DNA from: a virus
Virus record (IMG/VR): IMGVR_UViG_3300028610_000664
Location: 1 to 46,664 of that record
Direction: 5' to 3' (one strand)
Length of the DNA: 46,664 nt
Positions 11,945-33,400 of the stretch are shown piece by piece. Each line of letters starts with the position of its first letter. Within the stretch, counting starts at the first letter, position 1. The position numbers and the translations under genes were made by a program. Under the pieces are notes generated by a model, which was not told the origin of the DNA, ran no database searches, and saw nothing but the letters and a program-made list of their open reading frames with translations.

Positions 11945-11945
11945 G

Positions 11946-17608: not shown

Positions 17609-17626
17609 TCTATTCCTTAGTTTAAC

Positions 17627-17956: not shown

Positions 17957-18159
17957 GTCCGCGTACTCCTCTCAGGTAATTCAGTCTGAAGTGGGAACCG
18001 ACGGCACTCCAGCGTCCATACTGCGGTCATTCCTTTTTCGTACTCTTGCTTTTGCGTTGCCCGTTGTGCCTTAACACATTCTGTGAGCGAATCGTACTCA
18101 AGGTCAAACTGGGTATGCCCCATAACCGAGAACACGTTCACTATCAGCCACCATTTCAT
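17953..18159 (-). CDS. small protein with hydrophobic N-terminus
   Basis: The 68-residue product begins MKWWLIVNVFSVMG, a possible uncleaved signal or membrane anchor, followed by a charged helix (YDSLTECVKAQRATQKQEYE). It is coupled to the lipoprotein gene by an ATGA overlap, so the pair may act together at the envelope. Confidence 0.5.
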   Translation of the reverse strand: MKWWLIVNVFSVMGHTQFDLEYDSLTECVKAQRATQKQEYEKGMTAVWTLECRRFPLQTELPERSTRT

Positions 18160-18177
18160 ACCTTCGAGACTACCACC

Positions 18178-18201
18178 CTCGCCCTAGATTCCAGGGGCGA
18201 G
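18178..18201 (-). other. hairpin ahead of the lipoprotein pair
   Basis: CTCGCCC pairs with GGGCGAG around a 10-base loop in the short gap between two genes. There is no T-run on the minus strand, so an RNA stability or processing hairpin is more likely than a terminator. Confidence 0.4.
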
Positions 18202-18219
18202 AGCGGCAGAAGTGTGGCA

Positions 18220-18693
18220 TTATGAATCGGCTGTAACGCCTTCGTTGTCGAACGGCTGCTCGATCTCGATCGCAGCATCGGCTGGAAGATCAAAAATTTC
18301 AATCGAGCCAACGTCTTCGGGAGTGATGACTTCAGTCTCGGCGTCATCGAAAAAGCCATGATCGTCACCGGCATCTTCTCCGCCTTCGTCTCTGTCGTCG
18401 ATCACACCACCGATTTCTTCGACGGCTGGCGCATCAACTTCATCAACATCCGTATTGATGTCGAAATCTTCGGCTTCGGTTGGGAGTTCGGGGGCCACGT
18501 CAGCACCTTGTTCAAGAGTAGGCGCTTCAACGGCTGATTCGATGCCTTTGATCACTAGCTTTTGATTTCCGCCAACAGTCAGATCGACTGAGGCACCGGC
18601 CTCGACAGAATGCGATGCACGCAGATTTCCACCAAGGGTTACATCGACGGAGAGGGATTCTTCGCCGGTTGCTTCTATTCGTACATTGCTCAT
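18220..18693 (-). CDS. acidic hypothetical protein
   Basis: The 157-residue product has a short beta-rich start (VRIEATGEESLSVDVTLGG, then SVDLTVGGNQKLVIKG) and a long, very acidic, probably disordered tail. CTGGAG precedes the ATG. It is the first gene after the promoter-like box at 18736-18763. No family was recognised; the acidic tail recalls DNA-mimic or minor head proteins, which is only a suggestion. Confidence 0.6.
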   Translation of the reverse strand: MSNVRIEATGEESLSVDVTLGGNLRASHSVEAGASVDLTVGGNQKLVIKGIESAVEAPTLEQGADVAPELPTEAEDFDINTDVDEVDAPAVEEIGGVIDDRDEGGEDAGDDHGFFDDAETEVITPEDVGSIEIFDLPADAAIEIEQPFDNEGVTADS

Positions 18694-18735
18694 TTCGGAC
18701 TCCAGGTTGGCCCCAAGGAGGGGGGCTGTGGGCGC

Positions 18736-18763
18736 ACTATAACATTAAACGCCCACTAATCAA
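18736..18763 (-). promoter_or_regulatory. leftward promoter-like box (copy B)
   Basis: On the minus strand TTGATT and TATAGT are separated by 16 bases containing AGTGGGCGTTTAATGT. The whole 28-base box differs from the copy at 20665-20692 at a single base. The spacing and both hexamers fit a sigma-70 promoter for the genes from 18693 leftward. Confidence 0.65.
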
Positions 18764-18773
18764 ACCCGGAATC

Positions 18774-19127
18774 TTACGTGTCTTGTTTGCCTTCTACGCT
18801 GAGACTGAATGTAAACGACTGCCCAGCTGAACCAGCGACATCCCACGAGGCTCGTATGACACCACCGATCGGGCCAGCCAGAGTCCGGCGAATCGTTGCG
18901 ACAGCTTCTCCCTGTTGCGGGAATGTATCGATCACGAAGTACACGCCTGTTAGGGGGTGTTTCTCCTCGATCGTTACGTCCAGTAACGGGCTTGTGCCTG
19001 CATAAGCGGTAATGTCAAGGACAAAAATTGCATTGTCCGGGGTGTAGGCCAGATCAGCGCCATCGTCGTCAGCCGTTTCGGCTCCCGATGCATGAAGCAA
19101 GCTTACTTGTGCGAATGCTCTGCTCAC
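18774..19127 (-). CDS. beta-rich protein, paralogue of its upstream neighbour
   Basis: The 117-residue product aligns along its length with the neighbour at 19124-19480: both share FVLD(I/V)T, a PLLDV/PTLDV strand, the YF.ID.F segment and a C-terminal (F)(T/S).SV(E/Q)GK. It looks like a small beta-sandwich. Start and stop of the pair overlap by four bases. Role unknown; virion decoration is one option. Confidence 0.6.
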   Translation of the reverse strand: MSRAFAQVSLLHASGAETADDDGADLAYTPDNAIFVLDITAYAGTSPLLDVTIEEKHPLTGVYFVIDTFPQQGEAVATIRRTLAGPIGGVIRASWDVAGSAGQSFTFSLSVEGKQDT

Positions 19128-20190: not shown

Positions 20191-20658
20191 TCAGGCGCGG
20201 GTTCGTACACTGGCCAACATCTCCATTAAAACCTTGCAGTCCTTGAATGCTTTTCCGTCGTAGCTCGTGTGGTCTTCCGTCAGGACGCCCTTCCAGATCT
20301 TTCGCATGAAGAAGCCCAGCTCGAATGGTTCAATCTTTCGTCCGCCCCCAGGCCATGGGGCCGAAGGCCGCGCAATTAGTATTCCCGCTGCGTGTGTCGT
20401 GCCCAACTGCTTCATCGCCTCGGCGCGGTTGTTGCCGGTGCGGATCACCCACTCGTCGTTGAACTCTACTATGAGGGGGTTTATGCAGCCGTCTTTGGCA
20501 ATGCTTTCCTTGAGCGTGAGGAAGTGCTCGACCGACATCACGCCAGTCGTGACATCTCCCAGCTTGGGATGACCCGGCCCGGCCTGATAATCTTTGTACG
20601 TCGTGGTGCGCCACTTGAAAAGTGAAAGAGGTAATGTCTCGTAGTAGCGAACTTCCAT
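20191..20658 (-). CDS. ParB/sulfiredoxin-fold protein
   Basis: The 155-residue product contains the ParB-like core: LKESIAKDGCINPLIVEFN, then WVIRTGNNRAEAMKQLG. GNNR matches the G.(H/N)R nucleotide-binding motif of ParB N-terminal and phage ParB-like nuclease domains. It lacks the helix-turn-helix domain of partition ParB proteins, so it is more likely a phage regulator or nuclease of this fold. It is the first leftward gene, and the promoter-like box at 20665-20692 ends only seven bases from its ATG. Confidence 0.7.
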   Translation of the reverse strand: MEVRYYETLPLSLFKWRTTTYKDYQAGPGHPKLGDVTTGVMSVEHFLTLKESIAKDGCINPLIVEFNDEWVIRTGNNRAEAMKQLGTTHAAGILIARPSAPWPGGGRKIEPFELGFFMRKIWKGVLTEDHTSYDGKAFKDCKVLMEMLASVRTRA

Positions 20659-20692: not shown

Positions 20693-20948
20693 GAGTTTTT
20701 ATTTAGTCATTTTTTAGGTCGAATTTTTTACCTCACTTCGAGACTGAGGTATGACACGCGTGTGAGGTTTCGGGCCTTGGGCGCACATATAACACCCACT
20801 ATTCGATTTTTCTGAAACCCATGTGTGAACTACCTAAACGTACGTACGCCCCCGGCCCCCCCTTGGCCCGGTACGGGGGGTGCGCCTTCGGCCCTACAGC
20901 ATGGGCGTTCCTAACATCTGTATGGTGAGAGACGATAGACCACAGAAC

Positions 20949-20965
20949 TTACACAGCCTGTGTAA
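20949..20965. repeat. dyad 1 (TTACACAGCCTGTGTAA)
   Basis: This is an inverted repeat with one central base, extending to 21 bases (20947-20967). It lies 15 bases before the ATG of the first early gene, with AGGAG in between. Confidence 0.85.
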
Positions 20966-20980
20966 GTACAGGAGAAAACC

Positions 20981-21532
20981 ATGTCAAAGAAAGTTAGCAC
21001 GACACCCGTTCACAAAGGCGCGGGTAAGGTTGCGCAAGCAGTTGCCAAAGTGTATGGCATCGTGGCGCAGAACGGCAACGTCATCACACAGTGTGTGGCG
21101 AGTGCCAAGCAGGTGTACAAAGGCGCAGACATTCCGAAAAAGGATTTGTCCGCTATCGCTGACAAGGTTGCGATGCTTCGCGATTGGACTCCCGCAAGTG
21201 CGGGGCCGCGCAAGTCTGAAGTGCGCAAGATTCTGCGAGTGTACACTCGGTTGCCGGAAGCGATTACCGCTTACATGGCGAAGCACGACAGCTTCACATG
21301 GCACACCGCTGTGAAGTTAGCACGTTGCCTAGTTCGGGAACCCGCGCTTAACAAAGCGTTGGCCCTGATGGACGCAGCGCCGAAGGCCGATCCCGCGACA
21401 CCTCTGGAGTTGTGTGGCAAGGCTACTCGCCGCCTTATCAATCTGGATACCACATCAGGTAGCAAGGCGCGCAAGTTCCAAGACGCAGTTCAGGACATTG
21501 CGGAATCGATGGGGATTCCCAAAGTCTTTTGA
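20981..21532 (+). CDS. first early gene, hypothetical protein
   Basis: The 183-residue basic helical protein has AGGAG six bases before its ATG. Its own promoter region and the UUCG-type terminator directly after it make it a separate, probably highly expressed early unit. Segments such as EVRKILRVYTRLPEAITAYM and KARKFQDAVQDIAESMGI look like small helical bundles. No family was recognised; a host-takeover or DNA-binding role would fit the position but is not shown. Confidence 0.7.
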   Translation: MSKKVSTTPVHKGAGKVAQAVAKVYGIVAQNGNVITQCVASAKQVYKGADIPKKDLSAIADKVAMLRDWTPASAGPRKSEVRKILRVYTRLPEAITAYMAKHDSFTWHTAVKLARCLVREPALNKALALMDAAPKADPATPLELCGKATRRLINLDTTSGSKARKFQDAVQDIAESMGIPKVF

Positions 21533-21539
21533 GAGAATG

Positions 21540-21566
21540 AGCCTCGCTTCGGCGGGGCTTTCTTTT
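21540..21566 (+). terminator. rho-independent terminator
   Basis: AGCCTCGC pairs with GCGGGGCT around a TTCG tetraloop, followed by TTCTTTT. It closes the first early transcription unit. Confidence 0.85.
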
Positions 21567-22040
21567 GCCCACAGGTGTGACATTTTCCGGATGCGCCTTC
21601 GGCCCGGATATTACACAGGGTGTGTAAGATTAGATACGAGCGTGTGTCAAGCTTGGGGGCCGGGGGCGCACGGAAACCGTTATCATCAGCCGCTACCGGG
21701 CAAGGTGGACAAGCTGGACGCGGGTCTGGACACACGAAATGGCTATATATATACTATCCTACCTACCTAGTATAGTATGTCATTGTATAGAGAGAGAGCG
21801 TGTATATGTTGGGGGTGTAAACAATGAGAGTGTGTTTTGAGGTTTATATTATTATTCTCTCTTATGGCTCTGTTCCCCACACACGCAGACATACTAGACA
21901 TGGTGCGCCCAAGGCCCCAAAACCCTACACTTCACGCGCCCAACAAGGCGTTATCACCACGACAAGCCGGGTACAAGGTGGACATACCTTGTCAATCCAC
22001 CGCTTCACAAGCACGTTATTCTAATACAATGGAGAAACCA
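21567..22040 (+). other. long leader/intergenic region with repeats
   Basis: No convincing gene is seen. The region holds a second TGCGCCTTCGGCCC copy (21594-21607; the other is at 20880-20893), dyad 2 (21611-21627), two GTTATCA motifs, a copy of the 14-base element, and an AT-rich segment at about 21742-21800 with TATATATACTAT and an inverted AGTATAGTAT that could contain promoters. A TTG at 21837 would open a frame with a signal-like start in phase with the next gene, but it lacks a clear ribosome binding site. Confidence 0.5.
21611..21627. repeat. dyad 2 (TTACACAGGGTGTGTAA)
   Basis: The arms TTACACA/TGTGTAA are intact with a three-base centre. It lies in the long leader region after the first terminator. 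Confidence 0.75.
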
Positions 22041-22424
22041 ATGATTGAGCATCGCGCACCACCGAATAGATTGTCCCGAGTCGAAATAGACTTCGGCAGC
22101 GGCAGCAAGGCTAAGCGTTACTACGAGCGCTTGGTGAGTCTGATGCCACTTGTCAAACACACACTTGAGAAGCTTGGCAATAAAGACCACGCGGATCTTC
22201 TGAACAGTTGGCAGCACACGCTGGGGTACAGGATAGCCGAGGCTCCTCACTGGATTGTAGAGTGTGATGCCTTAGTTTGGCAGGCGTTATCACGGGGCCT
22301 CAGGCACCAAGGCACACAGGGTCGGACGATGTACGAGTGGATACAACGGAACCACACGCGGTACTACGACACACGCCCGTGGCGGGAGAATGGATATATG
22401 CCCGGCTCAAGGCGGCGACTGTGA
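22041..22424 (+). CDS. hypothetical protein
   Basis: The 127-residue product starts at ATG 22041, seven bases after GGAG. The frame stays open back to a TTG at 21837 and includes an ATG at 22029, but those starts lack good sites. It is basic and helical (GSKAKRYYERLVSLMPLVKH, LLNSWQHTLGYRIAE). No family was recognised. Its stop overlaps the next start (GTGA). Confidence 0.6.
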   Translation: MIEHRAPPNRLSRVEIDFGSGSKAKRYYERLVSLMPLVKHTLEKLGNKDHADLLNSWQHTLGYRIAEAPHWIVECDALVWQALSRGLRHQGTQGRTMYEWIQRNHTRYYDTRPWRENGYMPGSRRRL

Positions 22425-22768
22425 GCCGTACCACACACGCTCGTAAAGCCCGGATACAGGACGCGGCCAGGGACAGACGGCGTGCGAAGCGCGAGCGCCG
22501 CGAGGAGAAGTACATCCTCTGCCTGTTATGCGTTGGCCCACCACCGGCAGAGTCATTTGACTGGAAGGAGTACGAAGCGTGGAAGCAGGCGGTGCGGAAC
22601 TATTGGCGGGATGTGCATTGGGACGCGTCTCCGCCAATGGCTACCACTACACCGTACAAGTTCTATGACGGATTTGTGAAGTGGCTCAACGATGAACGGC
22701 GATGGGCACGGAAGCAGCCAGACATTGCAACGCAGGTGAAGCTAATCACTGATGTGATGAACGATTGA
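22421..22768 (+). CDS. hypothetical basic protein
   Basis: The 115-residue product starts at GTG 22421, overlapping the upstream stop; the open frame extends further upstream but would overlap more. A strongly basic N-terminal helix (ARDRRRAKRERREEKY) is followed by an aromatic-rich C-terminal part (FDWKEYEAWKQAVRNYW, FVKWLNDERRW). No family was recognised; nucleic-acid binding is possible. Confidence 0.55.
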   Translation: MSRTTHARKARIQDAARDRRRAKRERREEKYILCLLCVGPPPAESFDWKEYEAWKQAVRNYWRDVHWDASPPMATTTPYKFYDGFVKWLNDERRWARKQPDIATQVKLITDVMND

Positions 22769-22779
22769 CCTGACGATAC

Positions 22780-22796
22780 TTACACAGCCTGTGTAA
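22780..22796. repeat. dyad 3 (TTACACAGCCTGTGTAA)
   Basis: An exact copy in the gap upstream of the 22848 gene, 51 bases before its ATG. A repeated CTGACGAT/TTGACGATACT sequence flanks it. Confidence 0.85.
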
Positions 22797-22847
22797 CTTT
22801 GCGGGCTGAAACCTGACGATTAACTTGACGATACTAGGAGAAGAAAG

Positions 22848-23330
22848 ATGAACATCAAACGATTCAATTGGCTCATGGTGGCAGGACTGGTGGTGGTCGT
22901 TATCATCGCCGCCCGCGCTATCCCCCACGACACGACTGACCCAGAGGGAGGACGCAGCGGCCTGTCTCTTTATATAGATGAACTGACAGGATGCCAGTAC
23001 ATCCGGGTTGGCTTCTTCACCAAGCTCACGCCACGTTTAGACGAGAACGGTGCGCACCTATGTAAAGGTGACGAGCAACGCTGGCAGGATTACTACGCCC
23101 GGCAAGCGAAGGAGCAAGCCGAACGTGACGCAGAGGAGGCAAGGTACAACGCCCTGACTCTTGAGGAACGAAGGGCAGAGAACAAAGCGAAGGCCGACGC
23201 CCGCCGCCAACTCAGAGAACTACTGGCAGAGAAAGCCAGAAGGCTTGAGATAAAGAATGAGCGTGAACGCTGCGCCAAAATGCCCGAGTCACTGAGGGAG
23301 TACGCGAATTGTGGTGACGCCAATGATTAG
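22848..23330 (+). CDS. membrane-anchored coiled-coil protein
   Basis: The 160-residue product has one N-terminal membrane segment (residues 9-23, rich in Val and Ile) and a long charged helix in its second half (QAKEQAERDAEEARYNALTL onward) that should form a coiled coil. AGGAG precedes the ATG. The layout resembles inner-membrane spanins, but the early position argues against lysis. No family was recognised. Confidence 0.6.
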   Translation: MNIKRFNWLMVAGLVVVVIIAARAIPHDTTDPEGGRSGLSLYIDELTGCQYIRVGFFTKLTPRLDENGAHLCKGDEQRWQDYYARQAKEQAERDAEEARYNALTLEERRAENKAKADARRQLRELLAEKARRLEIKNERERCAKMPESLREYANCGDAND

Positions 23331-23460
23331 GCAGCAACCACCGTGGGGGCCGGGCAACACGCGCCAGCCTTGTCCGTGTCCTCACCTGCGATCAGGCAAG
23401 GAACAGAAGATCGACGAGAGTGGCAAATGTGCCAGATGTAAAACACAAAGGAGCAAATGA
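23323..23460 (+). CDS. 45-residue zinc-ribbon-like protein
   Basis: This small frame overlaps both neighbours by a few bases (previous stop, next ATGA). The cysteines CPCPH and CARC, about 19 residues apart, could bind zinc. The tight coupling supports it as a real gene. Confidence 0.55.
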   Translation: MIRQQPPWGPGNTRQPCPCPHLRSGKEQKIDESGKCARCKTQRSK

Positions 23461-23729
23461 AAATGTTGGACTTAGTTTACCTATTGATCTGTACAACAGG
23501 ACTCGTACCCGATCCGGAACATTGCGCGGTGTACGAGCTGCGCCCGCAGTACGAAATGACTCAAGCAATGATTGACGAGAAGGTTGATCGTATCTGTGAA
23601 ATGGCTTATGAAGCGACAGCCAAGTATGACGGTCAACTCACCAAGTGTGAAGTGATCGACGAGGACGAGAAGTTTGAGTTCGACGCGACCGGGTCGCGCT
23701 TCTTCCCGGTACCAACCACATCGATATAA
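23457..23729 (+). CDS. small hypothetical protein
   Basis: The 90-residue product has AAAGGAG upstream of its ATG. It starts with a hydrophobic stretch (LDLVYLLICTTGLV), possibly a signal or anchor, followed by an acidic soluble part with four cysteines in all. No family was recognised. Confidence 0.5.
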   Translation: MKMLDLVYLLICTTGLVPDPEHCAVYELRPQYEMTQAMIDEKVDRICEMAYEATAKYDGQLTKCEVIDEDEKFEFDATGSRFFPVPTTSI

Positions 23730-23730
23730 C

Positions 23731-23747
23731 TTACACAGCCTGTGTAA
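23731..23747. repeat. dyad 4 (TTACACAGCCTGTGTAA)
   Basis: An exact copy ending 16 bases before the ATG at 23764, with AAGGAG between, the same arrangement as dyads 1 and 6. Confidence 0.85.
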
Positions 23748-23763
23748 CTTCAAGGAGAACAGC

Positions 23764-24234
23764 ATGAACATCACCCTTATACTCACCATTGCGGTGGGCG
23801 TTATCATCGGCGGGCTTGTCCTAGTGCATCGGGACTGGATTGGCCGACAATCCCTCGCGCTTACATTGCTGCTGGCAAGAGCAATTGCACGCGGTGCTTA
23901 CGTGGCACGTTGGTACATTGGTGCGTGCATTGTAGTGAGTGCGTTTGTCCTTTGGTTTGCCATGACGCGGCCAGAGCATAGCCCCGGACAGTGGTGGGCA
24001 AATCAACTTGTTAAGTCTGCGTTCATTGGCCATTGCCAAGACAAAGGTGGCACATACAGTTCTGGCGATGGGAACTACTTCTATTGCTTTGAGAGAGCGT
24101 ACACAAAAGACGTAAAGCTTAGATGGTCATGGGCATACAGCCGGTCAGGTTGCAGGCTGACTACCTATAACTACCCCGACATGTCCGCTGCCACTGAGCA
24201 TTACACCGAGCCACTGTGCAAGGACGCACGATGA
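23764..24234 (+). CDS. two-pass membrane protein
   Basis: The 156-residue product starts at ATG 23764 behind AAGGAG. It has two membrane segments (about residues 3-20 and 47-66) and a cysteine-containing C-terminal domain of about 85 residues (CQDKGGTYSSGDGNYFYC) that would face one side of the membrane. No family was recognised. Confidence 0.6.
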   Translation: MNITLILTIAVGVIIGGLVLVHRDWIGRQSLALTLLLARAIARGAYVARWYIGACIVVSAFVLWFAMTRPEHSPGQWWANQLVKSAFIGHCQDKGGTYSSGDGNYFYCFERAYTKDVKLRWSWAYSRSGCRLTTYNYPDMSAATEHYTEPLCKDAR

Positions 24235-24488
24235 CCTACACCGAAGAAGAATTCATTGCGTGTCTGCTAGTGAATGGGTGGGTCAAGTCCCACGACTACG
24301 ACAACAGCCAGATGACATATTGGCAACAGGTTGATGTGTGGTTCAAAGGGACTTGGCCCGATCGATGGGCGTGTTCCGATGCTGGTTCACGTGACACCAC
24401 ACGTGGGCAAATGGAATTCAAGATACAGTTCTGGAGTTGGGGCAGAGAGATATTCGACGGCACTGTGCCCCCACCAGTACTCCCTTAA
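24231..24488 (+). CDS. small hypothetical protein
   Basis: The 85-residue product is coupled to the upstream gene by ATGA. The start TYTEEEFIACLLVNGW resembles the start of the next gene's product (EVEFAACLLEIGG), and both are Trp-rich, so the two may be related. No family was recognised. Confidence 0.5.
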   Translation: MTYTEEEFIACLLVNGWVKSHDYDNSQMTYWQQVDVWFKGTWPDRWACSDAGSRDTTRGQMEFKIQFWSWGREIFDGTVPPPVLP

Positions 24489-24499
24489 GGAGCGTTATC

Positions 24500-24736
24500 A
24501 TGCGCGACCCACGTGAAGTAGAGTTCGCAGCGTGCCTACTTGAGATAGGTGGGCCACCGCTGCTCATGGTTAAGAGCGACGGTGTGCTTGTGTCAAAGAC
24601 TGGCTACATGTTTACCGCATCACGATGGTATGAGAGGCACATCGAGCCACCACCAACAACGCCGGGGGAGACTACGCGGTTCACCAGTTGGTGGTTGGCG
24701 TACAAGCAATGGATATGGGAGAACCGTCATGCCTGA
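24500..24736 (+). CDS. small hypothetical protein
   Basis: The 78-residue product starts at ATG 24500, which overlaps a GTTATCA motif, with AAGGAG eight bases upstream. The N-terminus (EVEFAACLLEIGGPPLL) recalls both neighbours (EEFIACLLVNGW and EADFLAFLTYAGPPPI), so these three genes may be diverged tandem copies. Confidence 0.5.
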   Translation: MRDPREVEFAACLLEIGGPPLLMVKSDGVLVSKTGYMFTASRWYERHIEPPPTTPGETTRFTSWWLAYKQWIWENRHA

Positions 24737-25094
24737 CTGGCCACACATCAAGGACATAGGCGGCCACAAAACACTACAGACGTTTGCGGAAGCTGACTTT
24801 CTCGCATTCCTAACGTATGCCGGGCCGCCACCAATTGAGAAAGAAGGGGAGTTGTACCGCACGACAATGCTGCGCCAGCGAATTAAATACATTCAGTTGG
24901 CAGATAACTTCTGTTGCTCATACTTCGGTGACCCCGAGACTTGTCAGGAGTATGCAGACTACATCGGATTCTACGGCAAGTTCATCGAGTGGCACGCTTG
25001 CAAAATAGCTATTGCAGTTCCAGACCCTACGCTATTCGTGGAGTCTGATGTTTGTGTATATAAATGGAGAAAGGCACATGAACGAAAGAAATGA
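24729..25094 (+). CDS. small hypothetical protein
   Basis: The 121-residue product overlaps the upstream stop by eight bases. Its start contains EADFLAFLTYAGPPPI, similar to the products of the two preceding genes. The remainder is helical and aromatic-rich. No family was recognised. Confidence 0.5.
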   Translation: MPDWPHIKDIGGHKTLQTFAEADFLAFLTYAGPPPIEKEGELYRTTMLRQRIKYIQLADNFCCSYFGDPETCQEYADYIGFYGKFIEWHACKIAIAVPDPTLFVESDVCVYKWRKAHERKK

Positions 25095-25341
25095 CATGAG
25101 GTACGAGAACCAACTTAAGTTCGACCAGATGATTGCCTACATTGCAAAGTCAGAGCATTGCAAGACGGACGAGGATTGGGACGAACTGGTTGACAACATG
25201 CGTGCGTTAATCACACCACGCGGCACGATGAACAGGCAATTGCTTTTGTCCACCGTGTTCCAACAATGGAGCCGCGAACACTTCAAGAAAATTCTCGCGT
25301 CTTCGCAACGACACTTTGCAAAAAAGGAGAAAGGAAAATGA
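25078..25341 (+). CDS. small hypothetical protein
   Basis: The 87-residue product starts at ATG 25078 with GGAGAAAGG upstream. It is highly charged and helical with a basic C-terminus (QRHFAKKEKGK). It overlaps the next gene by ATGA. No family was recognised. Confidence 0.5.
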   Translation: MNERNDMRYENQLKFDQMIAYIAKSEHCKTDEDWDELVDNMRALITPRGTMNRQLLLSTVFQQWSREHFKKILASSQRHFAKKEKGK

Positions 25342-25814
25342 ATCAGCGATTCGAAGATACATTGGTTAGGGCTTTAGATTCGATTGCAGGTATGTCAAGA
25401 GACTACCGAGTGCTGGAAGAAAGAAACCGGCTGGCATTCAAGAAGCTACAGGAGCAGGACGAAACCATTCTCAAGCTGACCCGGATGCTGAACGAACCGG
25501 CAGATTGTGAGGACTGTCCGCACCAGCACCCCGAGTACCGCGAAGCAAGGTTCGCATTGATTGACGGTGCAACGTTATCATCGTTGCCCGGCCCCTTCTG
25601 CAAATGGCTGGAAGGTGAACGGAGGGCTGAGCGTGAGGATTCAGACATAGACCTTGCAGTTGGCATGGGTGGACAGTCATTCACTCAAGATGCATGGGAG
25701 AAAGAGCAAGGCTACCCATTCGCCTCTGCGCCCAAGGCCCCACGGTGCTATGACACGTACTTTGATGTGACGTGCTGGCGGTGGGTTCACAACACGGTGA
25801 GGATATTCGGATGA
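25338..25814 (+). CDS. coiled-coil protein with possible zinc site
   Basis: The 158-residue product begins with a helical heptad region (residues 5-50, YRVLEERNRLAFKKLQEQDE) and then has CEDCPHQH, a possible metal site. The second half resembles part of a soluble domain with no recognised family. It is coupled on both sides by ATGA overlaps. Confidence 0.5.
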   Translation: MNQRFEDTLVRALDSIAGMSRDYRVLEERNRLAFKKLQEQDETILKLTRMLNEPADCEDCPHQHPEYREARFALIDGATLSSLPGPFCKWLEGERRAEREDSDIDLAVGMGGQSFTQDAWEKEQGYPFASAPKAPRCYDTYFDVTCWRWVHNTVRIFG

Positions 25815-25945
25815 TCCGGCTACCTGTGTACATACTGTCGTTCACGATCATGTGTGCGGCAGCAATCGAGGGACAATGGGCGTGGGTTATCGTGCTTGCA
25901 GCGGTGACCTACGCCATACTCCCCCCTAAAGTAACAGGAGAATAA
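25811..25945 (+). CDS. 44-residue membrane peptide
   Basis: The ATG overlaps the upstream stop. Almost the whole peptide is hydrophobic, with two short membrane stretches (PVYILSFTIMCAAA and WVIVLAAVTYAIL) joined by EGQW. It could be a holin-like or host-membrane-modulating peptide; there is no direct evidence. Confidence 0.5.
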   Translation: MIRLPVYILSFTIMCAAAIEGQWAWVIVLAAVTYAILPPKVTGE

Positions 25946-25946
25946 C

Positions 25947-26129
25947 GTGGAACCTTTTATTATTGTAATGGTGGCATTCATGGTGTGGTTTGTCGTGGGC
26001 ATCGTAGAGATACTGATCGACCACTTCTCAACACACTACTTTTCAATTGGGCTGTGCAACAAGGTGCGGATCACGCTGGCTGTTGTAATCATGGGATGCC
26101 TTGTCGCCTACTGTGGGGTGACGACATGA
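25947..26129 (+). CDS. 60-residue membrane protein
   Basis: The product starts with GTG behind AGGAGAATAAC. It has two membrane segments (residues 4-24 and 42-56). It forms a run with the membrane proteins on either side and overlaps the next gene by ATGA. Confidence 0.55.
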   Translation: MEPFIIVMVAFMVWFVVGIVEILIDHFSTHYFSIGLCNKVRITLAVVIMGCLVAYCGVTT

Positions 26130-26494
26130 GCTACCACCCCCGGCACGACAAGCACATACCCTCGCATCTTTGGAAGCATGTAAAGGTGTGGCGGGCAGAG
26201 GATGAACTACGGGCGAAGGCTCGCAGAGCCAGACAGTTGTTTAAGTGGAGCGTTATCATCGCGGCCCTGTGTGCAGCACTGTTGTACCTGGGTTTGATCG
26301 CCAGTGTGTACGAGCATTCAGTATCGCACACGCCCAGCGTGCTGCCAGTGGAGACGGTAGCTCGCTTCATGGGAATACCGAGACGGCTGTGCGACAACAC
26401 AAAGTCTCACCGAGTGTGGGCTGAGTGCATGGGTGTCGGGTACAGGGACAATGCAACTGATCGATACTTATATACGCATCGCGAAGATGACTGA
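26126..26494 (+). CDS. single-pass membrane protein
   Basis: The 122-residue product starts at ATG 26126. It has a basic cytoplasmic N-terminus (about 40 residues, Arg- and His-rich), one membrane segment (residues 43-62) and an outer domain with two cysteines. No family was recognised. Confidence 0.55.
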   Translation: MSYHPRHDKHIPSHLWKHVKVWRAEDELRAKARRARQLFKWSVIIAALCAALLYLGLIASVYEHSVSHTPSVLPVETVARFMGIPRRLCDNTKSHRVWAECMGVGYRDNATDRYLYTHREDD

Positions 26495-26510
26495 GTAAAC
26501 CAACCATGAC

Positions 26511-26527
26511 TTGCACAGCTTGTGTAA
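26511..26527. repeat. dyad 5 (TTGCACAGCTTGTGTAA, degenerate)
   Basis: This copy has two changes from the consensus. It lies 62 bases before dyad 6 in the same gap, so the pair could bind a regulator cooperatively or form one larger RNA fold. Confidence 0.7.
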
Positions 26528-26588
26528 GGTTTGGGCGGCGCTGCCTTTATTGGCATGGGTCTTTCTCCTGCCCACCGCTGCCCGAATC

Positions 26589-26605
26589 TTACACAGGCTG
26601 TGTAA
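26589..26605. repeat. dyad 6 (TTACACAGGCTGTGTAA)
   Basis: A perfect dyad with central G, ending 16 bases before ATG 26622, with GGGAG in between. Confidence 0.85.
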
Positions 26606-26621
26606 GTTTAGGGAGAATGAA

Positions 26622-26795
26622 ATGTGTAAAGCAATGGACGACCTCAAGGCCGAGAACAAAAGGCTGAGAGTTTTACTCCGAGCTAAAGACGCAAGAATAG
26701 TTGCGGCGCTTGGCCGGATTGGGCACATCGAACGCCGCTGCCATGCTCTTAGACGGTGGCTTGTTCCTGTAGTTAAGGGGAAGAATGGTGAATGA
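26622..26795 (+). CDS. small coiled-coil protein
   Basis: The product has 57 residues from ATG 26622 behind GGGAG. A frame open to 26511 would translate through the dyads and is less likely. The first 40 residues form a basic leucine-zipper-like helix (DDLKAENKRLRVLLRAKDAR). DNA or RNA binding is possible. Confidence 0.5.
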   Translation: MCKAMDDLKAENKRLRVLLRAKDARIVAALGRIGHIERRCHALRRWLVPVVKGKNGE

Positions 26796-26979
26796 CATGA
26801 AGCAGGACAAAGTAGGTGTCACGAAGAAGCTACTGGATATGATCTTGGGTGCGCCCAAGGCCCACACTCCCCCACCACCGCTGAACCGAAAGACTCGCCG
26901 GTACATGGGGGCAATGCAACAGAAACGCAACGCAGCACCAAGGCGTAGAAAATATGAGGGCCGTGGTGTTAAGCGATAA
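26785..26979 (+). CDS. small basic protein
   Basis: The 64-residue product is very basic towards the C-terminus (NAAPRRRKYEGRGVKR). ATG 26785 or 26797 may be the start. The 14-base element at 26850 encodes part of its proline-rich middle. No family was recognised. Confidence 0.45.
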   Translation: MVNDMKQDKVGVTKKLLDMILGAPKAHTPPPPLNRKTRRYMGAMQQKRNAAPRRRKYEGRGVKR

Positions 26980-27496
26980 CCTCAGACGGAAATTACATGA
27001 GCTTTCAAAGAGCATGTACAACAACTCACGCACCGAGGAGTTCTTCAATTGGCAGGAAGAATTTGAGGAGTGTGCCAAGTACATTAACCGCGTAGTTAGA
27101 GAGGAGAAAGAATCAATGCTACTGTTTCCGGACATGAGGAGAGAGCAGTACGAGGGCAATGACAATTTTGTTTTTGCCGCACCCTGCACCAAAGTGGAGT
27201 GGGACTACCTGCACAGCAAATCCGTGCAGGAGGAACACTACTTACCCTACATCTTTATGAAGGATGACCCCGACGATGTAACTTGTCTAGTCCTTCGCCT
27301 TCCCGAAATAACTGACGAACAAGCTGTCACAACCGCCGCATGGATACGTGTATCTGAGGAGTACACCGGCATGATTTACGCTGTGAGCTTCGAGTCAGTC
27401 CCTTCCGTACAATCGTTATCATCAATCGTAGCCCGTACCGCTGGCTGCAACCCCAAGCAAGTTAAACACATAGAAATCAACAGGAGTAATGTATGA
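26954..27496 (+). CDS. hypothetical protein upstream of the MoxR gene
   Basis: The 180-residue product overlaps the previous gene by 26 bases and the MoxR gene by ATGA. It is acidic with a helical N-terminal half (FFNWQEEFEECAKYINRVV) and a beta-rich C-terminal half (YTGMIYAVSFESV). Coupling to the MoxR gene suggests it may belong to that module. No family was recognised. Confidence 0.6.
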   Translation: MRAVVLSDNLRRKLHELSKSMYNNSRTEEFFNWQEEFEECAKYINRVVREEKESMLLFPDMRREQYEGNDNFVFAAPCTKVEWDYLHSKSVQEEHYLPYIFMKDDPDDVTCLVLRLPEITDEQAVTTAAWIRVSEEYTGMIYAVSFESVPSVQSLSSIVARTAGCNPKQVKHIEINRSNV

Positions 27497-28578
27497 ACCT
27501 AGCACAAGCAAAGAAGCTAATCATCAAGCTGTTCCACCGTCAGATTGAAACTGGCGAGCGATTCAGTATCGAGCTAGTCTCTGGCCCCGGCATGGGGAAA
27601 TCAGAAGGCATAGCACAAGTGGCGCACGAACTGGCCACGTTACCGACAGACAAAGGTGGACTAGGCGAGCCTTGCGGCTTCCTACCATTCTTCCTGAGTA
27701 CGAAAGAAGCACCGGACATTGGCGGCTTCGGATTACCGGGCAAGGACGTTGACGGCACCCCCATCATGCGCTTCACGAAAGCACCGTGGATGCCCCGCAA
27801 AGGCGCACCCGCACACGGCATCGTGTTCCTTGATGAATTCCGTCAGTCCAACCATGATGTGCAGAAGCCTTCCGCTGAACTGCTACTCAACGGTCAGGTA
27901 GGTGAGTCCAAGCTACCTATTACGTGGATGGTAATCGCCGCGTCCAACCGAGAGAAGGACAGGTCAGGTGTGCAACGTGAACTCGCCTTCGTTGCCAACA
28001 GACGTATGGAAATTAAAATCGAGCCAAACCTGGATGCGTGGGTTCATTGGGCAGAGGTCAAGGCCATCCATTGGGCCGCAGTTGCGTTCGCCAAGCATCA
28101 ACCCGGCCTGATCTTTCGCGAGGATATTCCTGAGAAGTCTGGCCCATTCTGCACACCCCGATCATTCGTGAAAATGTCTCACATGATTGGTGAGCTTGAA
28201 ATGGAAATGTTTACCGAGGCCGCTGCAGGATTGATAGGCGAGGGAACCGCAGCACAATTCGTAGCGTTTCTACGAGTGGTTGAGCAGCTTCCGTCATTCG
28301 ACGAGATCATTGCCGACCCAAAGAAGTGCAGGACGCCCGAGACGGATCGCCCAGATGCACAGTACGCAACTATGCAGATGATCGCACACAGGGTGGACGA
28401 TGACACAGCTACACCAGCATTCACTTACCTCAAGCGTATGCCGAAAGAGTTTCAAGTGGCTGGCCTGAAGGCGACGTTGCGACGGTGTCCCGCTGTGTTA
28501 CGCAGCAAAGACTTTAGCTCATGGGTGCGAGACAACAAGGACTTGCTGGTTAACGCGAACCTTCTCGACGCTTCGTGA
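27493..28578 (+). CDS. MoxR-type AAA+ ATPase
   Basis: The 361-residue protein has Walker A GPGMGKS (residues 31-37), Walker B IVFLDEF (D114, E115), a sensor 1 region MVIAASNREKD and a following arginine-rich LAFVANRRMEIKI segment. These identify a MoxR-branch AAA+ remodelling ATPase. MoxR enzymes typically act with VWA-domain proteins, and one is encoded downstream at 30756-31937 in the same operon. Its partner and substrate are unknown. Confidence 0.85.
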   Translation: MNLAQAKKLIIKLFHRQIETGERFSIELVSGPGMGKSEGIAQVAHELATLPTDKGGLGEPCGFLPFFLSTKEAPDIGGFGLPGKDVDGTPIMRFTKAPWMPRKGAPAHGIVFLDEFRQSNHDVQKPSAELLLNGQVGESKLPITWMVIAASNREKDRSGVQRELAFVANRRMEIKIEPNLDAWVHWAEVKAIHWAAVAFAKHQPGLIFREDIPEKSGPFCTPRSFVKMSHMIGELEMEMFTEAAAGLIGEGTAAQFVAFLRVVEQLPSFDEIIADPKKCRTPETDRPDAQYATMQMIAHRVDDDTATPAFTYLKRMPKEFQVAGLKATLRRCPAVLRSKDFSSWVRDNKDLLVNANLLDAS

Positions 28579-28796
28579 ACCCGCATACACACAGCGGTGG
28601 GTTTCCTATCTTCCTAGTGGAGTCGAAGCTTTACCGCTGTGAGTGTGGATTCGAAAAAATGCTAGATACAAATCACTACCACGAATGCTACCCCTACTGC
28701 ATTGCATGTCAGAGGCAGTCAACGTGGAAGTGCCGAGAGTTAGATTTTGACATTATAATTAAACGAGTAGAGGAGCAAGACAATGCCCGACAATGA
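28575..28796 (+). CDS. small zinc-finger-like protein
   Basis: The 73-residue product starts with GTG overlapping the MoxR stop by four bases. It carries CECGF, HYHECYPYCIAC and a further Cys, so one or two zinc ribbons are likely. It sits between the ATPase gene and the next module gene. Confidence 0.55.
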   Translation: MNPHTHSGGFPIFLVESKLYRCECGFEKMLDTNHYHECYPYCIACQRQSTWKCRELDFDIIIKRVEEQDNARQ

Positions 28797-30144
28797 CTTT
28801 GACGATATATCCAGCCTGTTACAAGATGTGCTGGACGATAAGCCGGTAGAGATACCTGCTGACACGCCCGCTGACCCCTTCAAAGCGAAGGGTGATCCGG
28901 TAACTGCCAACCAACCGGAAGAACCAGAGCCGGACGATGGCGACATCCTTGGGGACTTCCTCAATGACATAGTAGAGGAGGAAGCTACACCAATACCGTT
29001 ATCACCGATCGATGAAGCGGTCGATGAGGCGGTGGCAGAAGTTGAGGCCGTGATCGAGGAGGCAACGGAGGAATCTTACACAGCCTGTGTAAGTTCTGAT
29101 GGTCTGTCAACCGCCGATGTTGTGGCGGGGATAGACGCGGAGCAACTAGAAGCCGCTGCGCCCGAGGCCCCACAGACCGCTGAGCATGTGTTCGCAGAGC
29201 CAGTAGAGAAGGCGGCGGTGCCAATGCCCACGTTCACTACGGACGAGCTGACGGAGAGCATTGACATACGCAACTTCGCTACCTTGGTCACGTTGAACAC
29301 GCAACGGTGGCACGCAAAGGCCAAGGACAGGAAAGCTGCGCTTGACGCTGCCGACGCCGCTGGTGCGGACAAGGACGCGTTCGATGCCCGTAAGAAATTG
29401 CTCGCGGGCTGCGACACTGAGCTTCGGGCTGTGCATAAAGAGATTGACAATGCACGTGCTGAGCATTACAGGCTCACCATGCCGTGGTCAAGCATCGGGC
29501 TTAACGATGTTGGCAAGCGAGCGGGTGGGAGGCTGATGCCGAACACGTTGTTCCTTGATTACACCACAGCTATGGCAAGGTGCAAGGCAGCAATGGAGGC
29601 CAAGCTCACTGAGTTCGAGACAAAGTACCCGAGCTTGATCGCCATTGCACAACAGAAGTTAGGTACTGCATTCGATCCTTCCCAGTACCCGAACCCGTCA
29701 AGCATACGCCAGCACTTCACGCTGAGCTTTGACTTCAACCCGATCCCTGTCGGCTCCGACTTCAAGGGACTACAGCAAGCACAGGTAGAGAAGCTGGGTG
29801 CTGCGCTGAACAGAAAGACGCGGGTGATGTTGGAGAATGCAATGCAGGATGTGTGGAAGAATCTCTACGAGACTGTAGCCCACGCGTATGCAAGGCTGAA
29901 TACTCCGGGTGCGATGTTCCATGCATCGTTGATCGACAAGCTGCGCGATCAGGCCGAGCTTATGAAACACCTGAATGCAACTGGTGACAAGAACATTGCA
30001 CAGGTGGCTAATCTGATCAGTGGTGATCTGATTAAGTTCGACCCGAAAGACATTCGCAAGGACGACGCATTGCGTAAGCGACTCGCCGACTATGCCAAGA
30101 AGGTGGTTGACTTCATGGAGGGCGTAGCGAATGCCAGCCCCTAG
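28783..30144 (+). CDS. helical protein of the MoxR/VWA module (DUF3150-like?)
   Basis: In the 453-residue protein the first 150 residues are acidic and probably disordered. The rest is helical, with two coiled-coil stretches around RKAALDAADAAGADKDAFDA and KELEK-type repeats near the C-terminus. A protein of this type often sits between a MoxR ATPase and a VWA protein in phages (I recall DUF3150), but that match is only by context and general character. Dyad 7 lies inside its acidic N-terminal coding part. Confidence 0.5.
   Translation: MPDNDFDDISSLLQDVLDDKPVEIPADTPADPFKAKGDPVTANQPEEPEPDDGDILGDFLNDIVEEEATPIPLSPIDEAVDEAVAEVEAVIEEATEESYTACVSSDGLSTADVVAGIDAEQLEAAAPEAPQTAEHVFAEPVEKAAVPMPTFTTDELTESIDIRNFATLVTLNTQRWHAKAKDRKAALDAADAAGADKDAFDARKKLLAGCDTELRAVHKEIDNARAEHYRLTMPWSSIGLNDVGKRAGGRLMPNTLFLDYTTAMARCKAAMEAKLTEFETKYPSLIAIAQQKLGTAFDPSQYPNPSSIRQHFTLSFDFNPIPVGSDFKGLQQAQVEKLGAALNRKTRVMLENAMQDVWKNLYETVAHAYARLNTPGAMFHASLIDKLRDQAELMKHLNATGDKNIAQVANLISGDLIKFDPKDIRKDDALRKRLADYAKKVVDFMEGVANASP
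29076..29092. repeat. dyad 7 inside a coding region (TTACACAGCCTGTGTAA)
   Basis: An exact copy within the 28783-30144 gene, where it encodes part of a disordered acidic segment (SYTACVSS). It shows that the element spreads or is kept independently of gene boundaries. Confidence 0.85.
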
Positions 30145-30763
30145 GTGGGAGAACCACAGTTCTGCGTGGAGCCGCACATTCAATTTTCGAAGCAAGGGCA
30201 AGAAAACTTGGTTGAGTGATGCCAACTGCCCTATACGGATGCGCGGTTATACCGAGCTTCGGCTAGGCGACCTCGATGCAAAGTTGCGTAAGAAGATTGA
30301 CACCGCTTTGCGTCGGGGCTATGCCTTGGAACGTAACTCACAATTGCGTCCTATGCTGGACATGCTTGAGAAAGTCCAGCCCGAACAGATGCTACCTATC
30401 GGCTACGTGGGCAAGACCGAGCTAACCCTTTTCCTCGCCACTGAGGATGAGGCCGACGACTTACAGAAGGAGTTGAACGCCAACACTGTAATGACCGAGG
30501 CTTTCAGAGGGAGCAGGATTAGGGTCAGGAAGGGCCGCGATGGTTGGTGGCTAGTTCAGGTAGACCTGTACAAACCAAGGGGCGCAAGAGGGAACACGAA
30601 GCACATGGCCCCATGCTTTACACAACTGCGCGTAACAATAGATGAATGGATGAAACCCGATGCCTCTATACGAGAGGAGTTCGCCCGATGGTGCGCTGAG
30701 GACAACAAGGTTATTAGGATTCCATTCGACTCACACTTAAAACGAGGAGTAGATAATGAGTGA
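30131..30763 (+). CDS. basic hypothetical protein of the MoxR/VWA module
   Basis: The 210-residue protein is strongly basic and lies between the helical protein and the VWA protein, overlapping both by 8-14 bases. It contains LRKKIDTALRRGYALERNS and a beta-rich GWWLVQVDLYKPRG segment. No family was recognised; the position suggests a module component. Confidence 0.55.
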   Translation: MPAPRWENHSSAWSRTFNFRSKGKKTWLSDANCPIRMRGYTELRLGDLDAKLRKKIDTALRRGYALERNSQLRPMLDMLEKVQPEQMLPIGYVGKTELTLFLATEDEADDLQKELNANTVMTEAFRGSRIRVRKGRDGWWLVQVDLYKPRGARGNTKHMAPCFTQLRVTIDEWMKPDASIREEFARWCAEDNKVIRIPFDSHLKRGVDNE

Positions 30764-31937
30764 TGACAGCCATCCGTTATACACGGAAGTAAAAACAGCA
30801 ATGCTGTTACATGTACCCTTCTTTGCCAGCATCCTGCTAGACATGATGACGGTTAAGATAGGGAAGTTCCCCGATGTATTCGGGAGCAGGACACCCACCG
30901 CAGCAACTAACGGTAAGACCGTTTGGTTTGACAAAGACTTCTTTGAGAAGATGAAGCTGCCCGAGCGTGTGTTCGTCCTCTGCCATGAGATTGGCCACGC
31001 GATGTGGTCACACATGTCCAGAGGCAAGCACTACTTTGATGCAGGATTCGAGGGCGAGAAGTTTGACCCTGGTAGGTGGAACAGGGCGGGCGATTACGTT
31101 ATCAACGATATGCTTGTCAAGTGTAACGTGGGCAAGATGCCCCAATGTGGCCTGCATGACCCGAGCAAGTACACATCCGAAATGCTTGTCGATGATGTGT
31201 ACCGCGATCTTAAGGACGATCCTGACGACGGTGAAGGAGCTGGGCAGGGAGAGGGCGGCTCGCTGGATCACCACATCCTTGAGATAGGTAGCACAAGCGA
31301 GGTTGAATGGAAACGGGCAGTACAGACCGCTGCCGATGCCGCCAAATCACAGGGTAAGCTCCCCGCTGACCTTAAGCGGTTCGTCGAGGAACTATTGAAC
31401 CCCAAGGTGCCGTGGACTGAGAAGCTACGTAGCAGCCTCACACGCTGCGCTGGGCGTGACTCCACTACTTGGTCAAAGCCCCACAGGCGGCGACTCATTA
31501 CCCAAGGCATTGTGATGCCGAGCTATACCGGGTTTGCTTCGGGCCACATCGTGTTCGTAGTCGATACCTCAGGGAGCATGTCTCAAGATGAAATGGCACA
31601 GGGGTTGAGTGAGTGTGACGCCATTCTCTCCGACTGCCAGCCAGAGGCGGTTACTCTGATAGGCTGTGACGCACGTGTGAACAGCCGACTTGAGCTTTAC
31701 TCAGGTGACTCGCTGGCCGATGACCCACCCCCATTAGGCGGTGGCGGTGGCACATCTTTTGTCCCGCCTTTCGATCTTTTGGCCGAAGAAGGGATCGTCC
31801 CTGCCTGTCTGGTGTACTTCACAGACATGATGGGAACCTTCCCCGATGATCCGGGCTATCCAGTGATCTGGTGTTCGACAAGTGAGAAGCACGAAGGCCC
31901 ATTCGGGGAGACAATCTACGTTGAGCTTGACGAGTGA
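30756..31937 (+). CDS. metallopeptidase-like/VWA protein (DUF2201 type)
   Basis: The 393-residue protein fuses two domains. The N-terminal part has a zinc-protease motif HEIGHAMWSH (H77, E78, H81), typical of the putative metallopeptidase domain of DUF2201 proteins. The C-terminal part is a von Willebrand A-like domain with a perfect MIDAS start DTSGSMS (D270-S274) and a later TDMMG aspartate. MoxR ATPases commonly act on VWA partners, so the ATPase at 27493 probably works with it. The target is unknown. Confidence 0.8.
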   Translation: MSDDSHPLYTEVKTAMLLHVPFFASILLDMMTVKIGKFPDVFGSRTPTAATNGKTVWFDKDFFEKMKLPERVFVLCHEIGHAMWSHMSRGKHYFDAGFEGEKFDPGRWNRAGDYVINDMLVKCNVGKMPQCGLHDPSKYTSEMLVDDVYRDLKDDPDDGEGAGQGEGGSLDHHILEIGSTSEVEWKRAVQTAADAAKSQGKLPADLKRFVEELLNPKVPWTEKLRSSLTRCAGRDSTTWSKPHRRRLITQGIVMPSYTGFASGHIVFVVDTSGSMSQDEMAQGLSECDAILSDCQPEAVTLIGCDARVNSRLELYSGDSLADDPPPLGGGGGTSFVPPFDLLAEEGIVPACLVYFTDMMGTFPDDPGYPVIWCSTSEKHEGPFGETIYVELDE

Positions 31938-32614
31938 GCCGCCGTTATCATCGCGGGCCTGTCGGCAAGGGTGGCATGGTTGGTGATCCTTCCTCACGCA
32001 TGTTCGCACTTGCTAAGGAGCTGTTGTGGCGTCAACGGCAAATCTACCCTTTCCCCTGCGATCAAGAGGAAGTGCTGCTCTCGCTGTTCCCCACAGAAAT
32101 GCAGGATACGGTGCTGACTGATGACGTTAGGTTCGCGTGGAATAATCTTACACACTGTGTAAGTACGGGAACCTCCTGCATCATAGAACTGGATGGTGTA
32201 ACGGGCAAGGCGTTCTGGATGCGCTTTGACAACCCGGTGCCTGTCCCGATGAACGCCGAGGCGTTTACGTTGCCAAGCGTCAGTCCTCATTACAGTGAGG
32301 TCTACAACTGGTGGCACAAAGCTATGGAGATTCATTCGGAGTTGAGCGAGTACGAGAAAGCTGTGTGGACATTCATACAGAAGGCGTGCCACCCGTTGCT
32401 TGTGGAAATGTATTGGCCAGAGCTACACACGTTCGTTGACTTCAAGTTATCCCCTAGTCAGGCGCTAAACCCGATGCTCCTCAACAAGAGACGTGTCGTA
32501 CCCATGCCCACCGCCGCTCAAAGCGATGGGATCATTCAAACCCTAGCAGCCAGTACGCTGCTCCCCCCACATGTATGCACAGCGTGGGTGGACTACGAAG
32601 TGGAGGAAGCATAA
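31934..32614 (+). CDS. hypothetical protein, possible paralogue of the next gene
   Basis: The 226-residue product is coupled to the VWA gene by a four-base overlap, so it may belong to the module. Near its end it has YWPELHTFVDFKLSP, which resembles VWPELLPFMDSESK in the next gene's product. Dyad 8 lies inside its coding region. No named family was recognised. Confidence 0.55.
   Translation: MSRRYHRGPVGKGGMVGDPSSRMFALAKELLWRQRQIYPFPCDQEEVLLSLFPTEMQDTVLTDDVRFAWNNLTHCVSTGTSCIIELDGVTGKAFWMRFDNPVPVPMNAEAFTLPSVSPHYSEVYNWWHKAMEIHSELSEYEKAVWTFIQKACHPLLVEMYWPELHTFVDFKLSPSQALNPMLLNKRRVVPMPTAAQSDGIIQTLAASTLLPPHVCTAWVDYEVEEA
32148..32162. repeat. dyad 8 inside a coding region (TTACACACTGTGTAA)
   Basis: This is a shortened copy with intact TTACACA/TGTGTAA arms and one central base; the inner G and C of the full element are missing. 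It lies in the 31934-32614 gene. Confidence 0.75.
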
Positions 32615-33351
32615 TGTCTTTTACTCTCCAGTTCAGAAATTCATTCCCACGCGAAATGCAAGGGAAGTTTGAAGTATATTGGCACTTGATGCACCCTCAG
32701 ACAATCGATCGCGCAGATATTTATCGGTGGGGGTGGGACGATGAAGAATGGAATGCGTTGAAACTGTTGGAGAGACGACGGAGTGACGTAATCTGCTCGG
32801 CTTCTCAATGGCAGGAGTGGACTTTCACCATGCACTTCGGTGGGAAGTACCCCGAGTATGTGCCAAACCATGCGAAGCTTGGATACAAATGCGCCAAAGG
32901 CAAGCCGGTTATAAACGTAAAAGAAACCGATCTGCCCGACGCACTGAGGGATGAACTGCGATTGTGGATCATCGAAGCATTCAGGTATCAGCGGCTTTCG
33001 TTTCAACTGCTGCGACAGTTAAATGCCCTGCTCGCTGTGCAGCGGGAAAAAGCTCCGGGGACAAATCGCTACGGTCGAACTGTATGGAAGAACGACTCAC
33101 AGTGCAAAGGGATATGCAACACGACCAGTACGCTGTACGCGGTGTGGCCCGAACTTCTACCGTTCATGGACTCAGAGTCAAAGGCCACGTTGCGCCACAG
33201 GAAAATGCGTACTTCCCTGCCGCGTGTGTGGGACGAAGATGACCTAAAAGAATTCCATGCGGTGGAGGGCATGGACGAATTAACAGAAGCACTCAGCACC
33301 ATGTCACTCATACCCAATGAGAAAGACAAATACTATCCTAGTCTGAATTAG
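32614..33351 (+). CDS. hypothetical protein, last gene of the first early operon
   Basis: The 245-residue product starts at ATG 32614, sharing a base with the previous stop, and has TGGAGGAAGC upstream. Its C-terminal half contains VWPELLPFMD and RKMRTSLPR, resembling the previous gene's product. The dyad and terminator directly after it mark the end of the transcript. No named family was recognised. Confidence 0.6.
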   Translation: MSFTLQFRNSFPREMQGKFEVYWHLMHPQTIDRADIYRWGWDDEEWNALKLLERRRSDVICSASQWQEWTFTMHFGGKYPEYVPNHAKLGYKCAKGKPVINVKETDLPDALRDELRLWIIEAFRYQRLSFQLLRQLNALLAVQREKAPGTNRYGRTVWKNDSQCKGICNTTSTLYAVWPELLPFMDSESKATLRHRKMRTSLPRVWDEDDLKEFHAVEGMDELTEALSTMSLIPNEKDKYYPSLN

Positions 33352-33368
33352 TTACACAGGCTGTGTAA
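33352..33368. repeat. dyad 9 (TTACACAGGCTGTGTAA)
   Basis: A perfect dyad between the stop of the 32614-33351 gene and the terminator at 33374. It is the rightmost copy found. Confidence 0.85.
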
Positions 33369-33373
33369 CTTTG

Positions 33374-33400
33374 GCCCTCGCTTCGGCGGGGGCTTTTTTT
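33374..33400 (+). terminator. strong rho-independent terminator
   Basis: GCCCTCGC pairs with GCGGGGGC around a TTCG tetraloop (one G-T wobble) and is followed by seven T. It separates the module operon from the replication operon and is almost the same as the terminator at 21540. Confidence 0.9.

Follow-up and report, generated by a model that had tools for sequence, protein, structure and literature searches.

Background

The palindromic operator of KorB, an autoregulated protein, has a G/C centre. On plasmid RK2 such operators (OB) lie at many promoters, and repression by KorB acts over a long range (PMC11790492). A 15-bp element of the SPbeta prophage of Bacillus, SPBRE, occurs at about ten places of the genome and is bound by one phage repressor, MrpR (PMC10516654). 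In the cluster A mycobacteriophages, for instance L5 and TipsytheTRex, numerous stoperators are dispersed over promoters and the short intergenic gaps along operons; their motif is private to each phage, and the distance between motifs tracks the distance between repressors (PMC9283540, PMC6550527).

The window considered here, i.e. the whole stretch of DNA that was analysed, is a 46.7-kb virus record with leftward structural genes and rightward early and replication genes, which diverge from a junction at approximately 20.7-20.98 kb. The dyads to the right of this junction resemble the stoperators in being numerous (9 in the window, about 8-11 in nine other phages, 44-52 in contig G030 and Rhizobium phage RHph_TM3_14A), in that the motif distance tracks that of the proposed regulator (see below), and in being placed at stops, starts and terminators (PMC9283540). 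They differ in being palindromes with a variable spacer, whereas in cluster A a 13-mer without symmetry follows the direction of transcription. The cluster A repressor is a monomer with a helix-turn-helix and a second DNA-binding domain, to which the regulator proposed here, the product of the first rightward gene, is unrelated (no Pfam, PDB-sequence or fold match), and cluster A phages are temperate, whereas no lysogeny genes were found here. As with SPBRE and MrpR, one motif is repeated at about ten places of a phage genome; however, MrpR is a regulator of lysogeny with the fold of a tyrosine recombinase, and the first-gene product has no such similarity (its model of nine helices found no counterpart in the PDB, and PF00589 was not found in 12 records). 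A likeness to KorB may lie in the palindromes beside the first gene, through which this gene would be regulated, but KorB is a CTPase clamp of the ParB family, and the first-gene product has no detectable ParB or CTPase domain and gave weak, non-significant fold matches. Finally, the promoters of phage N4 are hairpins with a 3-nt loop and go along with a virion RNA polymerase gene, whereas the spacer here is 0-4 and the giant proteins tested belong to other families.

Results

The dyads of the window

All nine dyads listed in a preliminary description of this DNA are present (Table 1), namely six perfect 17-mers of the form TTACACAG-S-CTGTGTAA, two near copies and one variant (dyad 8) that is two bases shorter than the form described before. 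The window holds eight dyads with at most three mismatches, compared to a mean of 0.11 in shuffled sequences (largest number 2), and its largest palindrome family has 7-8 members versus 1-2 across 20 shuffles. As had also been described, dyads 1, 4 and 6 end 15, 16 and 16 nt ahead of an ATG with a purine-rich site between, and two dyads (7 and 8) lie inside genes. The dyad-bearing stretch reaches from the first rightward gene to the terminator ahead of the DNA polymerase gene.

Table 1 Positions of the dyads and accompanying elements in the window
Feature	Position	Strand	Remarks
Promoter-like element TTCCTA-n6-GTATGGTGAG	20908..20929	+	common to leaders of relatives
Dyad 1, TTACACAGCCTGTGTAA, perfect	20949..20965	none	flanked by promoter-like box and ribosome site of gene 20981; relative G001 has it at the same place
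First rightward gene, proposed operator-binding autoregulator	20981..21532	+	183 aa, basic (pI 9.9), nine helices predicted
Terminator-like hairpin	21539..21560	+	3' of first gene
Dyad 2, one mismatch (TTACACAGGGTGTGTAA)	21611..21627	none	past terminator of first gene
Dyad 3, perfect	22780..22796	none	intergenic
Dyad 4, perfect	23731..23747	none	stop codon on one side, ribosome site on the other
Dyad 5, two mismatches (TTGCACAGCTTGTGTAA)	26511..26527	none	makes up a pair of sites with dyad 6
Dyad 6, perfect	26589..26605	none	precedes ribosome site
Dyad 7, perfect	29076..29092	none	within gene 28783-30144
Dyad 8, variant TTACACA-C-TGTGTAA, 15 bp	32148..32162	none	within gene 31934-32614
Dyad 9, perfect	33352..33368	none	stop codon TAG before, terminator after
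Terminator-like hairpin with T run	33373..33394	+	directly 3' of dyad 9; dyad-bearing block ends here
Octamer CGTTATCA, 14 copies	21678, 21949, 22285, 22898, 23799, 24493, 25573, 26251, 27414, 28997, 31097, 31943, 33742, 38035	+	

Private palindromes in related phages

A megablast search of the window against phages and an Rfam search gave no match, and nothing on such elements in these phages was found in the open-licence literature. Relatives, several dozen IMG/VR contigs, were obtained by scans with portal, vWA and primase proteins. By portal, the nearest cultured phages are the Rhizobium phages RHph_TM3_14A, TM27A/B and TM29 (48%); phages of the HMO-2011 type come next, at a considerable distance. 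Exact matches to the dyad pattern in IMG/VR contigs L005, L006, L008 and L009 were discarded as chance or unrelated, L007 being the only relative among these matches.

An unbiased search revealed a repeated-palindrome family in nearly every contig covering the early segment and in none of the contigs with structural genes only. In the nine relatives with this segment covered, it is filled by the approximately 8-11 palindromes mentioned above, the sequence of which is private to each phage. The arms read TTACACA in the window, G001, G003, G012, G013, G023 and G026, TCACACA in G006, G007, G008 and G021, ACACACA in G028 and L059, TTACAAC in G017, G018 and L060, TTACACG in L033 and G020, TTACAG in G029, TTGCTAG in G009 and G010, TTACTT in G030 and TTACCT in RHph_TM3_14A. 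In the window, most half-sites are 3 bp apart; a spacer of 1 bp prevails in most other phages, and G021 has a mixture of 0, 1 and 2 bp. The spacer varies over 0 to 3 bp within as well as between phages, with an overall range of 0-4 bp.

Conservation in relatives, on which the preliminary description had made its reading depend, was found, as they have sites at the same places. Dyad 2 has counterparts in G012 and G013 at +618 to +623 with spacers of 1 and 2, and the pair of dyads 5 and 6 corresponds to two sites 74 bp apart in G013, where the homolog of gene 28783-30144 also holds an internal site and the 15-bp form of dyad 8 is the main form. The order of stop codon, dyad and terminator seen at dyad 9 recurs in G004 (with a 15-bp site), and that of dyad and terminator in G021 and G028. 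The latter two phages share eight sites in alignable flanks with the palindrome at the same place, the arms being TCACACA in the one and ACACACA in the other. Both arms thus differ in step, as expected from one trans-acting reader of double-stranded DNA.

The last site lies 0.4-2.1 kb ahead of the DNA polymerase gene in nine of nine phages (the window and eight others). The sites avoid the interior of open reading frames (54 of 95 inside versus 81.5 expected), and a start preceded by a Shine-Dalgarno sequence follows 0-25 nt downstream of 29 of them, in 10 phages, against an expectation of 9.7, the commonest gap being 13 nt; the dyad-plus-ribosome-site layout proposed for the window is therefore a recurrent one. 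In several phages (G013, G017, G021, G028), the spacing of sites tends to widen away from the early promoter. A palindrome of the phage's own type is found within about 130 nt of the start of the first gene in 18 of 18 cases. Its position varies, being upstream of the promoter-like box (G006, G013, G021, G028, G029, L059), between this box and the ribosome site, or within the initial codons of the gene. This box is putative and was deduced from conservation.

A different extent was observed in the cultured phage RHph_TM3_14A (L118/L119), where 52 copies of TTACCT-N3/4-AGGTAA are spread across the whole 60.9-kb genome and both transcription units, also deep within long genes including one of 6.9 kb. 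Their spacing (mean 1.1 kb) is more even than random, with a CV of 0.56 versus 0.97 (0 of 2000 simulations). G030 has 44 sites genome-wide, the spacing of which is not significantly even. Scrambled-motif controls gave 0.15 and 0.05 sites for RHph_TM3_14A and G030, respectively.

The first-gene product

All relatives of the TTACACA and TTACAAC types in which the junction is covered carry a homolog of the first gene there. The family is basic throughout (pI 8.8-10.3) and shares 17-71% identity with the protein of the window; W69, R77 and E80 are invariant, and the family taken as a whole is without a conserved stretch. AlphaFold models of the proteins from the window (pLDDT 84.8) and G017 (pLDDT 87.4) agree on nine helices; from the secondary structure alone, a helix-turn-helix at residues 91-119 is possible. 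A PDB fold search with both models gave no significant match, including to any DNA-binding protein, and the window model had no match among viral models at E ≤ 0.001. Pfam and PHROGs gave no function, a PDB-sequence search no match, and no match was obtained either by tblastn with the first gene in phages and plasmids or by a scan with the single protein. The first genes of G009/G010 and RHph_TM3_14A/G030 have no detectable homology to this family; in a profile comparison, the values were E=0.0034 (probability 9.5) for G009/G010 and 0.45 for RHph_TM3_14A, i.e. no firm homology.

Divergent from the first gene lies a gene for a ParB-N-like protein (20191-20658, minus strand) with homologs in three relatives only. 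A C-rich block (CCCCCTTGGCCCGGTACCCC) is conserved at the junction approximately 100-120 nt upstream of the first gene (in the window at 20862, as CTTGGCCCGGTAC, and likewise in most relatives) and is a candidate for a terminator, an origin or part of a promoter.

Covariation of the putative operators with proteins

In 15 phages, the distance between operators correlated with that between first-gene proteins (r=0.58, p=0.0005; 0.59 with TerL controlled), and the correlations with TerL (0.09) and portal (0.15) were not significant. The preliminary description had named a ribbon-helix-helix (RHH) protein encoded at 17229-17381 as the first candidate for the binder. Its correlation with the operators fell from 0.35 to 0.02 given the first-gene product, which itself kept 0.49 given the RHH protein. 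Few other early genes were present in enough relatives for testing, and when a wider range of proteins was scanned, on subsets of phages that were smaller and differed, the values were mixed, among them r=0.67 for the primase (without G009, G010 and G030). In view of this high value, the correlation of the first gene is strong but not conclusive. The predicted helix at residues 107-119 changes together with the inner arm of the operator (TWH with TTACACA, RRxH with TTACAAC, TRVA with TTACACG and KHDA with TTACAG). Since the letters of the operator changed in step with the first gene, its product is likely the regulator that binds the dyads.

A strand-specific octamer

No 8-mer is more over-represented in the early region than CGTTATCA, all 14 copies of which lie on the plus strand. 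They start past the first gene and follow the same genes as the dyads in varying reading frames. Six phages have a total of 56 exact copies in sense and 0 in antisense orientation in their early segments, and G009 and G010 have CTATCAT in place of the octamer (9:0 and 9:1). The RNA structure flanking the copies is no more stable than in controls. The octamer is a candidate for a promoter -10-like, pause or antitermination signal. A separate dispersed motif, TTGTTAG, occurs in G008 (L067-L070) genome-wide, 41 times on one strand and 30 times on the other, far above expectation.

Discussion

The distribution of the sites is not random. They occupy the early operon and hold their places in relatives while their sequence shifts in step and tracks the first-gene product. 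The most probable explanation, for which we consider the chances to be somewhat better than even, is that a single regulator encoded by the phage uses the dyads as its operators on DNA. Gene 20981-21532 most likely codes for this regulator, which would control its own gene and lower early transcription. The protein would be made at once from the early promoter, bind the operator beside its own start as well as those scattered along the early operon as far as the terminator ahead of the DNA polymerase gene, and thereby block the promoter and obstruct elongation along the operon. A site next to the start of its own gene points to autoregulation, and the sites along the operon point to control of elongation, as by stoperators, or action over a long range, as by KorB. 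That the first-gene product binds the dyads, that binding represses and that repression acts on elongation are all steps we infer. Speaking against this reading are the lack of a significant fold match to any DNA-binding protein, the variable spacing of the half-sites and the first genes of G009/G010 and RHph_TM3_14A/G030, which have no detectable homology to the family. Operators for a trans-acting DNA-binding protein had been proposed before, and the comparison of genomes supports this; a strictly rigid dimer is doubtful because the spacing of the half-sites varies within and between phages.

An immunity function, by which the regulator of a temperate phage silences the early operon as a whole in a lysogen or a plasmid prophage, would agree with the layout and the covariation of motif and protein, both of which are as in cluster A mycobacteriophages (PMC9283540, PMC6550527). 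It is nevertheless improbable, as no integrase (PF00589) was found in 12 records, some of which are incomplete, and when one genome from each of 84,980 species was searched for the portal, only a portal fragment turned up, in a metagenome-assembled genome (MAG) without a first-gene match. The fragment, a 1.3-kb piece in Myxococcales MAG bin5 (CP070713.1, L121:10001-11332), is 77% identical, with 500 N in the stretch and no phage gene nearby, and was rejected as a prophage; it is probably an assembly chimera but might be a hint of the host. For the operator reading itself, it is a difficulty that early genes strewn with putative repressor sites in a phage without a recognised integrase require an explanation other than lysogeny. 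As no integrase was found, we prefer a timed shut-off of early genes in the lytic cycle to lysogenic silencing. It is also possible, yet unlikely, that the sites are architectural or partition-like, i.e. that a protein loads at the dispersed palindromes, perhaps slides from them as the clamps of KorB and ParB do, and coats, condenses or protects the DNA, with control of the first gene as a by-product. The even distribution over the whole genome of RHph_TM3_14A and deep into its long genes, the genic sites of the window and the nearby ParB-N-like gene would all be in line with this. However, the sites end before the DNA polymerase gene in the window and eight other phages, the ParB-N-like gene is present in only three relatives and the first-gene product matches neither ParB proteins nor CTPases.

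The alternative that the element acts in early messages, as a processing site or as a translational operator by the ribosome site, had also been raised before. A stem with a 3-nt loop can be drawn for most copies, both mismatches of dyad 5 are compatible with G-U pairs and 29 of the 95 sites adjoin a ribosome site. We favor DNA over RNA and regard hairpins in messages as highly improbable, since several relatives have a site upstream of the promoter-like box, G-U pairs are not preferred (transcribed-strand mismatches are G-T in 3 and A-C in 6 cases, 10 versus 9 in RHph_TM3_14A) and sites occur inside genes, ahead of terminators and, in RHph_TM3_14A, over all transcription units. The RHH protein, with its RHH_3 match, its Arc-like PHROG and its wide occurrence in relatives, would be a DNA-binding candidate, but a variable residue of its strand does not track the operator class and, given the loss of its correlation described above, there is very little chance that it is the binder. 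Least of all do we expect the dyads to be promoters of the N4 kind, i.e. hairpins recognised by a virion RNA polymerase. The presence of very large virion proteins and of short inverted repeats scattered over the early region would suit such promoters; however, spacers of lengths other than 3 nt occur, the matches of the giant proteins from G008 and RHph_TM3_14A are to polyvalent/DarB-like or unknown families and not to RNA polymerase, and a search for PF00940, made without a positive control, gave no match. The giant late proteins with similarity to DarB-like or large polyvalent proteins are encoded at 11071-18865 in G008 (LPD39) and at 47471-54394 in RHph_TM3_14A.

Beyond the operators themselves, the fast-evolving early proteins with what may be a new DNA-binding fold, their tens of private palindromes of flexible spacing and the strictly oriented octamer CGTTATCA might together form a two-element control of elongation in lytic phages, extending over the early operon or, in some, the whole genome. 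We put this forward tentatively and consider it rather doubtful.

Conclusions

To our knowledge, good descriptions of dispersed operators that affect elongation come mainly from temperate mycobacteriophages. Judged from the genomes compared here, the phages of this group, without a recognised integrase, may possess an independent, palindromic version. The cultured Rhizobium phage with its 52 evenly spaced sites, the first gene of which is not detectably related to that of the window, makes the question testable. Moreover, the relatives would provide more than a dozen natural candidate pairs of protein and operator with diverged specificities, and such pairs could serve as material for understanding DNA recognition by a protein of unknown fold and the joint shift in specificity of a regulator and dozens of sites.
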